This document shows, piece by piece, positions 52,077 through 55,300 of a stretch of DNA of 64,000 bases. The position numbers and the translations under genes were made by a program. Every line of letters starts with the position of its first letter. Position 1 is the stretch's first letter. Source of the stretch: Pseudoxanthomonas spadix (lineage in GTDB: Bacteria; Pseudomonadota; Gammaproteobacteria; Xanthomonadales; Xanthomonadaceae); contig NZ_RDQN01000001.1 of NCBI RefSeq assembly GCF_003703395.1, positions 1 to 64,000 of the forward strand. The letters run 5' to 3'. The notes beneath the pieces were generated by a model that ran no database searches, was not told where the DNA came from, and saw nothing but the letters and a program-made list of their open reading frames with translations.

Positions 52077-53235
52077 CGGCGCGCGCGCGCCTACCGATAC
52101 TGCGCACACCGAGCCGGTCCTGGCGCTGGCCTGCGAACTGATCGCCCGGCCTTCGGTCACGCCCGAGGACGCCGGCTGTCAGGCGCTGATCGGCTCGCGC
52201 CTGCAGGCGGCCGGTTTCACCTGCGAGCAGCTGCGCTTTGGCCGGGTCGACAACCTGTGGGCCACGCACGGCAGCGGCGCACCGGTGCTGGTGCTGCTGG
52301 GCCATACCGACGTGGTGCCGACCGGGCCGGTCGAAGCCTGGGCCAGTGACCCGTTCAAGCCGCAGGTGCGCGAGGGCAACCTCTACGGCCGCGGCAGCGC
52401 CGACATGAAGGGCAGCGTGGCTGCGTTCGTGGTCGCCGCCGAGCAATACGTGGCCGCCCATCCGGACCATGCCGGCACGCTGGCGGTGCTGCTCACCAGC
52501 GACGAGGAAGGCGATGCCATCGATGGCGTGCGCCGGGTCGCCAGGGTGTTGGCCGAGCGCGGTCAGGGCATCGACTGGTGCATCACCGGCGAGCCGTCCT
52601 CAACCCAGACCCTGGGCGATCTGCTGCGTGTGGGCCGTCGCGGCAGCCTGACCGGCACCTTGACGGTCAAAGGCGTGCAGGGCCACGTGGCCTATCCGCA
52701 CAAGGCCCGCAATCCGATCCACCAGGCCGCCCCCGCCCTGGCCGAGCTGACCTCGCGCCAGTGGGACGACGGCTATGAAAGCTTCCCGCCGACCAGCCTG
52801 CAGGTGTCCAACATCCATGCCGGCACCGGCGCCAGCAACGTGATCCCGGGCCAGCTGCAGGTGCTGTTCAACCTGCGCTACAACCCGCACTGGGATGCGC
52901 CGAAGCTGGAGGCCGAAGTCGCCGCACTGCTGGAGCGCCACGGCCTGGAATACACGCTGCAATGGCATCGCAGCGGCGAGCCGTTCTACACGCCCGAAGG
53001 CACGCTGCGCTGCGTGGCCCGTCAGGTGCTGGGCGAGTTTGCCGGAGCGCCGCCGCAGGAAAGCACCGGCGGCGGCACCTCGGACGCGCGCTTCGTCGCG
53101 CCACTGGGCGCGCAGTGCATCGAGGTCGGGCCGGTCAACGCCAGCATCCACCAGATCGACGAGCACGTGCGCGTGGCCGACCTGGAGCGGCTGCCGGACC
53201 TGTATCGCACGTTGATCGAACGGTTGCTGGCGTAA
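52048..53235 (+). CDS. dapE: Succinyl-diaminopimelate desuccinylase
   Basis: DapE releases succinate from N-succinyl-LL-diaminopimelate, a zinc-dependent step of lysine and peptidoglycan synthesis. The 395-residue product shows the M20 metallopeptidase signatures [13 protein letters not shown] (zinc His and Asp), [28 protein letters not shown] with the catalytic Glu, and GGGTSDARF. The conserved domain begins at [18 protein letters not shown], but the first 21 residues ([16 protein letters not shown]...) are extra and partly encoded by a REP. No other ATG, GTG or TTG lies between, so ATG 52048 (or GTG 52042) must be used. Confidence 0.95.
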
Positions 53236-53238
53236 CAG

Positions 53239-53274
53239 TTGCGTTGCAGCAAACGCCCGGGTTAAGTTGCGCCC
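53239..53274 (+). promoter_or_regulatory. Weak promoter candidate for the asnB leader
   Basis: TTGCGT (53239-53244) is followed after 17 bp by TTAAGT (53262-53267). The -10 match is poor. If used, transcription would start at or next to the leader-peptide ATG, which has no Shine-Dalgarno, making the leader leaderless. Confidence 0.3.
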
Positions 53275-53367
53275 ATGCCGTCCAGCCGCGCCACCGTCGT
53301 GAACAACACCAACCGCAATGCCCTGCGTGCGAACAATCGCGCGCGGCCGATGCGGGTCTGCGACTAG
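53275..53367 (+). CDS. Asparagine-rich leader peptide of asnB
   Basis: A 30-codon ORF, ATG to TAG, lies 40 bp after dapE and 113 bp before asnB. Codons 10, 11, 13, 15, 20 and 21 are Asn (AAC, AAC, AAC, AAT, AAC, AAT; 53302-53337), so half of residues 10-21 are asparagine. Such clustering is the mark of an attenuator leader whose translation rate reports charged tRNA-Asn. A hairpin GCGTGCG-AACAAT-CGCGCGC (53325-53344) carries the last Asn pair in its loop. Codons 25-28 contain the antiterminator strand, CGATGCGGGT (53348-53357). No Shine-Dalgarno is visible. The peptide itself is probably not functional. Confidence 0.8.
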   Translation: MPSSRATVVNNTNRNALRANNRARPMRVCD

Positions 53368-53431
53368 GCACAGAACGGAACAGCCAGGAAACCAGAAAAC
53401 CCGCATCGCAAGATGCGGGTTTTTTCTTTTT
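53348..53431 (+). promoter_or_regulatory. Asn attenuator: antiterminator and intrinsic terminator before asnB
   Basis: The terminator is a 12-bp stem, AAAACCCGCATC (53396-53407), loop GCAA, GATGCGGGTTTT (53412-53423), continued by TT, C and TTTTT. Its 5' arm, ACCCGCATCG (53399-53408), is a perfect 10-bp complement of CGATGCGGGT (53348-53357) inside the leader ORF. A ribosome stalled at the Asn codons leaves 53348-53357 free to pair with that arm and blocks the terminator. A ribosome reaching the stop codon at 53365 covers it, and the terminator forms. asnB would thus be on when Asn-tRNA is scarce. The elements are seen directly; the mechanism is inferred from known his/trp/leu attenuators. 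Confidence 0.82.
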
Positions 53432-53480
53432 GGACCGCCCTGAACCCTTTCCCACGTCATGTTTCCCCAGGAGTTTTCCC

Positions 53481-55169
53481 ATGTGTTCGATCTTCGGCAT
53501 CTTCGGCCTGCAATCCGGCGATGATCTTGGCGCGCTGCGCCGTCAGGCGCTGGAGTGCTCGCAGCGCCAGCGCCATCGCGGCCCGGACTGGAGCGGGGTG
53601 TACGTGGACGAGGGCGCGATCCTGGTGCACGAGCGCCTGGCCATCGTCGATCCGGCCGGCGGTTCGCAGCCGCTGCTGAGCCAGGACGGCGCGCTGGCGC
53701 TGGCGGTCAACGGCGAGATCTACAACCACGCCGAATTGAAGGCCGAGCTGACCCAGCCCTACGCGTTCCAGACCGGCTCGGACTGCGAGGTGATCAACGC
53801 CCTGTATCGCGAGGATGCGCCGGAATCGTTCCTCAACCGCCTCAACGGCATCTTCGCCTTCGCGCTGTGGGACAGGCAGACCGGCCGCGCCCTCATCGCC
53901 CGCGACCCCATCGGGGTGTGCCCGCTGTACTGGGGCCACGACCGCGAAGGCCGCCTGCGCGTGGCCTCGGAAATGAAGTCGCTGTGCGAGCATTGCGCCG
54001 ATGTGGCCCAGTTCCCGCCCGGCCACTGGTACGACACCGCCACCGGCAAGTTGACCCAGTACTACAGGCGCCCATGGCGTGACTACGAGGCGGTCAAGGG
54101 GGTCCAGGTGAGCCCGACCGAGTTGCGCGAGGCCTTCGAGGCCGCCGTGCATCGCCAGTTGATGACCGATGTGCCCTACGGGGTGCTGTTGTCCGGCGGC
54201 CTGGATTCGTCGCTGGTGGCCGCGGTGGCCGCGCGCTATGCGCGCCATCGCGTCGAGGACGGCGACAGGACCGAGGCCTGGTGGCCGCGCCTGCATTCAT
54301 TCGCCATCGGCTTGAAGGGCTCGCCCGACCTGGCCGCGGCCAGGATCGCTGCCGACGCGTTGGGCACGGTGCACCACGGCTTCGAATACACCTTCGAGGA
54401 AGGCCTGGATGCGCTGCCGGAGGTCATCAGGCACATCGAGACCTACGATGTGACCACCATCCGCGCCTCCACCCCGATGTTCCTGCTGGCGCGCCGGATC
54501 AAGGCGATGGGCGTGAAGATGGTGCTCAGCGGCGAAGGCTCCGACGAGATCTTCGGCGGCTACCTGTACTTCCACAAGGCGCCGAACGCGCGCGAATTCC
54601 ACGAGGAGCTGATCCGCAAGCTGGACGCGCTGCACAACTACGACTGCCTGCGCGCCAACAAGTCGATGATGGCCTGGGGCGTGGAGCCGCGCGTGCCGTT
54701 CCTGGACCGCGAGTTCCTGGATGTGGCCATGCGCATGGATGCTTCGCACAAGATGATCACGGTCGGTGCCGATGGCAAGAAGCGGATCGAGAAAGCGGTG
54801 CTGCGCGAGGCCTTCGAAGGTTACCTGCCCGATTCGATCCTGTGGCGGCAGAAGGAGCAGTTCAGCGACGGCGTCGGCTACGGCTGGATCGACGGGCTCA
54901 AGGCCCACGCCGAGGCCCAGGTCAGCGACCGCGAGCTGGCCGCAGCCGACAAGCGCTTCCCGTTCAACCCGCCGCTGACCAAGGAGGCGTACTTCTATCG
55001 CGCGCTGTTCGAGCAGGCGTTCCCGACGCCGGCCGCGGCCGAGACGGTGCCGGGCGGCAAGTCGATCGCCTGCTCCTCGCCGGCGGCGATCGCCTGGGAC
55101 GCGAGCTTCGCCGCCGCGGCAGATCCGTCCGGCCGTGCCATTGCCGGGGTGCACGCGCAGGCGCTGTAG
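53481..55169 (+). CDS. asnB: Asparagine synthase B, glutamine-hydrolysing
   Basis: AsnB makes asparagine from aspartate, glutamine and ATP. The 562-residue enzyme has the N-terminal glutaminase domain with nucleophile Cys2 (CSIFGIFG), RHRGPDWSGV, VNGEIYNHAEL and GSDCEVI. The C-terminal synthase domain has the PP-loop LSGGLDSSLVA, GEGSDEIFGGY and RVPFLDREFL. AGGAG lies 8 nt before the ATG. It appears to be controlled by the attenuator just upstream. Asparagine supply ties to aspartate use, which also feeds cyanophycin. Confidence 0.97.
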   Translation: MCSIFGIFGLQSGDDLGALRRQALECSQRQRHRGPDWSGVYVDEGAILVHERLAIVDPAGGSQPLLSQDGALALAVNGEIYNHAELKAELTQPYAFQTGSDCEVINALYREDAPESFLNRLNGIFAFALWDRQTGRALIARDPIGVCPLYWGHDREGRLRVASEMKSLCEHCADVAQFPPGHWYDTATGKLTQYYRRPWRDYEAVKGVQVSPTELREAFEAAVHRQLMTDVPYGVLLSGGLDSSLVAAVAARYARHRVEDGDRTEAWWPRLHSFAIGLKGSPDLAAARIAADALGTVHHGFEYTFEEGLDALPEVIRHIETYDVTTIRASTPMFLLARRIKAMGVKMVLSGEGSDEIFGGYLYFHKAPNAREFHEELIRKLDALHNYDCLRANKSMMAWGVEPRVPFLDREFLDVAMRMDASHKMITVGADGKKRIEKAVLREAFEGYLPDSILWRQKEQFSDGVGYGWIDGLKAHAEAQVSDRELAAADKRFPFNPPLTKEAYFYRALFEQAFPTPAAAETVPGGKSIACSSPAAIAWDASFAAAADPSGRAIAGVHAQAL

Positions 55170-55300
55170 GGCGGGTCTCGACCCGCCGGCCGTTGTGGGC
55201 ATTGCGATGGCGGGTCAAGACCCGCCCTACCGGGGTCGCGATGGCGGGTCAAGACCCGCCCTACCGGCATCGCGATGGCGGGTCGAGACCCGCCCTACGG
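55168..55300. repeat. Palindromic GGCGGGTC/GACCCGCC repeats, 34-bp tandem
   Basis: Four palindromes of the type GGCGGGTC-NN-GACCCGCC lie between the convergent asnB and beta-helix genes. The last three form a tandem with a 34-bp period (GCGATGG starts at 55204, 55238 and 55272). The first palindrome touches the asnB stop. They look like a REP family different from the GTGGGAGC type and may end transcription from both sides. Confidence 0.9.

Follow-up and report, generated by a model that had tools for sequence, protein, structure and literature searches.

A probable ribosome-mediated attenuator with an asparagine-rich leader upstream of asnB in Pseudoxanthomonas spadix and its relatives

In classical attenuators, an antiterminator competes with the terminator, and a ribosome that has reached the leader stop codon hides its 5' arm. 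The T-boxes of asparagine genes in Firmicutes sense the charging of the cognate tRNA and control termination, and they bind the tRNA directly and have no leader ORF. In mycobacteria, polycysteine leaderless short ORFs, in work attributed to Canestrari et al. in 2020, are said to attenuate a biosynthetic operon. The his, trp, thr, leu, ilv, and phe attenuators (PMC1183508) have a short ORF rich in codons for the amino acid that the operon produces and a terminator before the structural gene, as does the locus described here. For trpL of S. meliloti, PMC7298713 places the 5' end of the RNA at the ATG of the leader ORF. The mycobacterial cys leaders were described as being without conserved terminator hairpins in an actinobacterial survey (PMC1262725), whose main text does not mention asparagine. 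The main text of a genome-wide terminator survey cites Xanthomonas once, for rpsL, and asparagine never (PMC2965389). A full-text literature search on Asn attenuators and on attenuation in this bacterial group, covering the main texts of freely readable articles, found none for Asn among the matches listed.

Here, we analyzed a 64-kb stretch of P. spadix DNA, referred to as the window, in which a preliminary description had proposed an attenuator upstream of asnB. The region is best read, at a probability of roughly 90%, as a ribosome-mediated transcription attenuator of asnB that would sense charged tRNA-Asn. At the gathering level, Rfam reported one tRNA only in the whole window. In positions 53200–53500, a search at E ≤ 5 yielded only sub-threshold matches, some of them on the other strand, including Thr_leader (23.5, gathering 55) and Leu_leader (18.6, gathering 50). 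No T-box appeared in either search. Pfam and NCBIfam searches with four leader peptides gave no match.

Anatomy and predicted folding of the asnB leader

The predicted controlled gene, asnB (53481–55169, forward strand, as are all features below), encodes a glutamine-hydrolysing asparagine synthetase B of 562 amino acids. Its product matches the NCBIfam model NF006949 (asparagine synthase B) with 875.5 bits against a cut-off of 499, and its top PDB match, and thus the nearest solved structure, is 1ct9, asparagine synthetase B, which bears out the earlier assignment of this gene to asparagine synthesis. An AGGAG Shine-Dalgarno sequence precedes it (53469–53473), and no site this strong is present at the leader. 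The dapE gene lies upstream of the leader in the same direction and ends 39 nt before it. Directly after asnB, at 55169–55299, a palindromic GGCGGGTC..GACCCGCC unit is present in similar copies, which perhaps belong to an extragenic repeat family.

The leader ORF (53275–53367, MPSSRATVVNNTNRNALRANNRARPMRVCD), which is probably leaderless, has 30 codons and a TAG stop codon. Direct reading of the sequence agreed with the preliminary description on its six Asn codons, at positions 10, 11, 13, 15, 20, and 21 (AAC at 53302, 53305, and 53311, AAT at 53317, AAC at 53332, and AAT at 53335). These codons delimit a control region (53302–53337) where ribosomes are predicted to stall when Asn-tRNA is short, and its Asn columns are kept within the genus. 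A density of at least 6 Asn in 14 codons, as seen in the window, was reached in none of 5000 dinucleotide shuffles of 53236–53480, whose maximum was 5 (observed twice), and no second ORF with this density was found in the six frames of the 64-kb window. A chance origin of the Asn-rich leader is excluded.

The intrinsic terminator announced in the preliminary description was found at 53400–53425, with an 8-bp core stem, a GCAA loop, and six T (CCCGCATC-GCAA-GATGCGGG followed by T6; core at 53400–53419, T6 at 53420–53425) and with weaker pairs extending from 53394. Strand A (53348–53357, CGATGCGGGT), the putative 5' arm of the antiterminator, is contained in the final codons of the leader ORF and is a perfect 10-nt complement of strand B (53399–53408, ACCCGCATCG), again as had been described. 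Strand B is predicted to be a shared arm, pairing either with A or with the 3' arm of the terminator. Counted from the first base of Asn codon 21, the last one, strand A starts 13 nt on, so that exactly 10 nt intervene (about 10 had been stated), and its 3' end falls 10 nt short of the last base of the stop codon. With the usual ribosome footprint, A would be exposed by a ribosome at the Asn codons and covered by one at the stop codon.

The predicted energies were −18.0 kcal/mol for the A:B duplex and −21.1 kcal/mol for the terminator hairpin. When a ribosome was placed on Asn21 and the RNA extended to 53412, A:B formed (9 bp plus 4, −23.3 kcal/mol), and with the ribosome at the stop codon A was masked and the terminator formed (−22.0 kcal/mol). 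In the full leader, the terminator was still the minimum-energy state with the ribosome on Asn21 (−28.4 kcal/mol), and antitermination would therefore have to be kinetic, with A:B forming first. The RNA to 53412 folded without a ribosome likewise formed A:B (−47.7 kcal/mol); this prediction for an untranslated leader counts against a clear default without translation. In the full-length fold without a ribosome, A paired partly or weakly with CCGCA of the Asn-Arg-Asn codons.

Conservation of the leader and covariation of the alternative pairing

Relatives of asnB were collected from named genomes (the best 80 of at least 587), from the genus (37 of 38 genomes, including our own), from the order (218 of 299), and from family f7 (36 of 39). 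The sole genome of the genus without an asnB match at E ≤ 1e-50, G025, measures 2.0 Mb and is 94% complete. The upstream regions of 226 loci were scored, namely 147 clade loci, 76 controls, and three oddly labelled loci. The clade consists of families f1 (that of the window), f2, and f12 together with 39 named loci; the named records place f1 and f12 in Xanthomonadaceae/Lysobacteraceae and Rhodanobacteraceae, and f2 is a third family. The controls comprise 38 loci of other bacteria (L043–L080), eight of f9, and 30 of f7; families f3–f6, f8, f10, and f11, some of which have no asnB, were left out of the upstream comparison. Sixty regions were hand-picked for genus spread from among the listed asnB genomes of the order (218 with asnB).

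The Asn enrichment and conserved pairing that the preliminary description would expect in related genomes were both found. The maximum number of Asn in 14 codons was at least 3 in 145 of 147 clade loci, at least 5 in 128, and at least 6 in 104, versus 18, 1, and 0 of the 76 controls, respectively. No such leader was found in f7 and f9 of the order or in L043–L080, and the top control, a Photobacterium, has 5 Asn. The two clade loci with fewer than 3 Asn (L160 and L161, genus g15 of the window's family) kept asnB at 80% identity with no Asn leader upstream, probably through natural loss, and seven further clade loci reach only 3 Asn. In named records the leader occurs in Xanthomonas, Stenotrophomonas, Lysobacter, Luteimonas, Thermomonas, Pseudoxanthomonas, Rhodanobacter, Dyella, and Arenimonas, and in all it spans more than 30 genus labels, which gives a natural attenuator alignment of unusual depth.

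A dapE match was detected in the upstream stretch of up to 2.5 kb in 42 of the 72 loci tested, eight of which have it at a distance of over 1 kb from asnB. The leader is present in 27 of the 30 loci without such a match, and it tracks asnB even with a different upstream gene. It is absent from the remaining three, L016, L024, and L041, labelled Holophagales MAG, Rhodococcus sp. RD6.2, and Deltaproteobacteria MAG. Their asnB genes are 74–83% identical to that of the window, which suggests transfer, misbinning, or contamination, and they were counted apart from the clade.

After exclusion of L160 and L161, 145 leaders with at least 3 Asn remained. A script detected a terminator in 142 of them (the match in L168 is probably wrong), and in the other three (L022, L038, and L178) a hairpin is visible by eye in the sequence. 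These three were excluded from the pairing, codon, folding, promoter, and pause-hairpin counts. Some clade loci represented one genome twice, and removal of 22 entries with duplicate A and B sequences left 120 distinct leader-terminator pairs of the 142. L168, which has no CCCGC anchor, was also excluded from the column covariation and from the pause-hairpin and fold tests, leaving 119 leaders.

The longest Watson-Crick A:B helix measured 7.75 nt on average, versus 4.98 nt with shuffled A and 6.25 nt when A and B came from different loci, and it reached at least 8 nt in 58 of 120 leaders versus 2.2% of shuffles. The longest perfect helix is only about 5 nt in many Rhodanobacteraceae. The two arms differ between lineages in a concerted way. 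In place of the window's CGATGCGGGT/ACCCGCATCG, the pair is CGCGGGC/GCCCGCG in several Lysobacter, GGCGGGCC/GGCCCGCC in several Rhodanobacter, and GGGCGGGCC/GGCCCGCCC in two f2 loci. Column +5 was paired in 101 of 119 leaders (T-A 51, G-C 37, C-G 8) versus 50.5 ± 5.0 after reshuffling (maximum 66 in 500), and columns −1, 6, 7, 8, and 9 also exceeded the maximum of 500 reshuffles; the registers and the anchor were chosen for maximal pairing and the loci share ancestry, so that these figures lean towards structure. Columns −4, −3, and −2 showed no covariation above the 500-reshuffle maximum, and columns 0–4 are near invariant and uninformative. Among the 93 loci whose core is fully paired, the core of A stops 11 nt short of the last base of the stop codon in 73, and the stretch from A to B has a mean folding z-score of −3.3 over 119 loci, with 94% below −1. 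As would be expected of an attenuator, the locus has a predicted antiterminator that is mutually exclusive with the terminator, and its arms covary.

The preliminary description had called the attenuator complete. The leader, the terminator, and the antiterminator stood, and the word was slightly too strong for the pause hairpin, which found no statistical support: over 119 leaders, the longest complement of strand 1 averaged 4.72 nt versus 4.69 nt in shuffles and reached at least 6 nt in 9% versus 17% of shuffles. Since strand 1 was not enriched over shuffles, the pause hairpin was left out of the anatomy that we claim.

Leader start, codon choice, and asparagine supply

A −35-like TTGCGT (53239–53244) and a −10-like TAAGTT (53263–53268), separated by an 18-nt spacer, form the predicted promoter of the leader, a sigma-70-like pair of hexamers. 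The −10-like element lies 6 nt before the leader ATG, with the A of the ATG as the predicted transcription start, and this register is conserved. A TTG-N16-19-nnnnnT pair ending 5–8 nt before the leader start was found in 117 of 120 distinct leaders (6 nt in 77, 7 nt in 36), compared with 0.3–0.6 loci per distance and about 1.8 overall expected from shuffles, a count in which the best-scoring in-frame start was taken, favouring the pattern, and in which single bases were shuffled. The −35 element starts with TTGC in 116 of the 117, and the −10 element varies (TACGGT, CAGGAT, TCTAGT, TTTAGT, and TAGTTT among others), indicating that the register is held while the sequence drifts. A stricter consensus promoter scan reported no promoter-like site, and TAAGTT is a weak match to TATAAT.

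The anti-Shine-Dalgarno energy in the window is −3.2 for the leader and −6.9 for asnB. Over the 120 loci it averages −2.5 for the leaders, weaker than their own shuffles (−3.4), versus −6.5 for asnB, and −4 is reached by 34 of 120 leaders versus 117 of 120 asnB genes. The conserved promoter register and the weak Shine-Dalgarno pairing together suggest that the leader mRNA is probably leaderless, with transcription predicted to begin at the leader ATG.

Asn is the commonest residue (19.5%) in the 120 distinct leaders. In the 28 distinct leaders of the same genus, several columns hold Asn while AAC and AAT exchange; column −11, for instance, is Asn in all 28, as 17 AAC and 11 AAT. AAT makes up 45% of the Asn codons of the leaders (339 of 759) versus 13.9% in asnB of the same loci (100 of 719; Fisher p ~1e-39), a comparison in which the asnB stretch is only about 60 bases for many loci and the sequences are related rather than independent events. 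Of the 23 Asn codons in the window's dapD, dapE, and asnB, one is AAT. How sensitive an attenuator is depends, as is known, on which regulatory codons it uses, although the theory deals with isoacceptors (PMC1183508).

A search of the P. spadix genome for other leaders with the pattern NNxNxN gave five matches, as did the reversed-pattern control. The matches other than the asnB leader were rejected as leaders, being simple stretches coding for Asn, Ser, Gly, and Asp, none of them leader-shaped. Such simple repeats are located at G000:C20:402387-402994 and G000:C1:163606, and those on C20 adjoin an element reading PLPRSRGRGG or SPRERGRGG.

The same genome encodes an asparaginyl-tRNA synthetase (TIGR00457, 629.8 bits, cut-off 342.6) and no GatB detectable at E ≤ 0.001. 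Asn-tRNA should therefore depend on free asparagine, and the signal read by the switch would be asparagine supply. One strong asparagine synthetase match (PF00733) was found in this genome, together with three others of 23–30 bits (cut-off 21). Among 299 genomes of the order, at the thresholds used, 218 have asnB, 55 have gatB, none has both, and 26 have neither; AsnRS was found in 270. This exclusion suggests that the switch is connected to the pathway by which Asn-tRNA is synthesised. Families f7 and f9, which have asnB without gatB, are also without the leader, showing that absence of GatCAB is insufficient for the switch.

Proposed mechanism, alternatives, and relation to known attenuators

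In the mechanism that we propose, transcription would begin at the leader ATG and yield a leaderless mRNA for translation of the leader. With ample asparagine, the ribosome would reach the stop codon and cover A, so that B would pair with the 3' arm of the terminator and transcription would end before asnB. If Asn-tRNA runs short, stalling of the ribosome on the Asn codons would leave A free to pair with B while the polymerase is making B; formation of the terminator would then be prevented and asnB would be transcribed. What comparison of sequences establishes is an Asn-rich leader, a terminator, a strand A predicted to be able to replace the terminator's 3' arm on B, kept spacing, and covariation, in three families. 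The attenuator reading of the preliminary description is thus supported by conservation and covariation, and from it we infer the response to asparagine.

The position of the hairpin downstream of dapE could mean that it is a plain terminator of the dap operon and that the ORF is a chance frame. This is scarcely credible, because the Asn density was absent from all shuffles, a leader with at least 3 Asn accompanies nearly every clade locus, including those with no dapE match upstream, and the leader has its own promoter register; moreover, loss of the Asn codons and of the pairing would be predicted in relatives, and the opposite was found. It is also very improbable that leader translation controls asnB otherwise, through termination by Rho or by masking the ribosome-binding site of asnB, with the hairpin being secondary. 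Leader ORFs of mycobacterial cys operons without obvious terminators are described in PMC1262725, yet here a T-tailed hairpin was detected by script for 142 of 145 leaders, and the final leader codons covary with its arm.

Two further alternatives would leave the attenuator in place. The leader may be attenuating but not leaderless, with a promoter farther upstream, within or before dapE, and a weak or unusual ribosome site. The co-directional dapE close by, the weak −10 element, the failure of the consensus scan to report a promoter, and an anti-Shine-Dalgarno energy in the window that is not zero all speak for this, but the promoter-like pair ending 5–8 nt from the start in 117 of 120 leaders speaks against it, and we give it a small, though appreciable, chance. 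The leader might additionally act in trans, through its terminated RNA or its peptide, as is reported for the trp leader of S. meliloti (PMC7298713). A discrete RNA of about 150 nt and a peptide tail conserved in the genus (RARPMRVCD type) would indeed be released, but the RNA pairing encoded by the tail accounts for it, and the tail differs where the terminator arms of the lineages differ, making such an action quite unlikely.

For the attenuator as a whole, a broader interpretation is tentative, and we consider it possible rather than probable. The locus may represent a minimal class of attenuator in which a leaderless +1 start loads the ribosome as the 5' end emerges, synchronising it with the polymerase in place of a pause hairpin, with Asn sensed through codons enriched in AAT, the less used of the two, and with a single origin in the ancestor of Xanthomonadaceae and Rhodanobacteraceae, in which the absence of GatCAB ties Asn-tRNA to free asparagine. 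If the leader is leaderless and has no pause hairpin, synchronisation of ribosome and polymerase without a hairpin becomes testable.

Compared with classical attenuators, the asnB leader would differ in sensing Asn, in being probably leaderless, and in having a strand 1 and pause hairpin without statistical support. The mycobacterial polycysteine ORFs are reported to be leaderless, as the asnB leader probably is, and resemble it in carrying codons of the product amino acid, which in their case is cysteine. The S. meliloti trpL is a published precedent for a leaderless attenuator leader in a proteobacterium (PMC7298713); it differs in its Trp codons, in preceding trpE(G), and in belonging to an alphaproteobacterium, and its 5' end was reported, whereas that of the asnB leader is predicted. 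Ribosome-mediated transcription attenuation would extend to the sensing of asparagine, in a bacterial group that is widespread. The asnB leader is probably a known kind of switch applied to a new amino acid, with the probable leaderless start as its distinctive trait.
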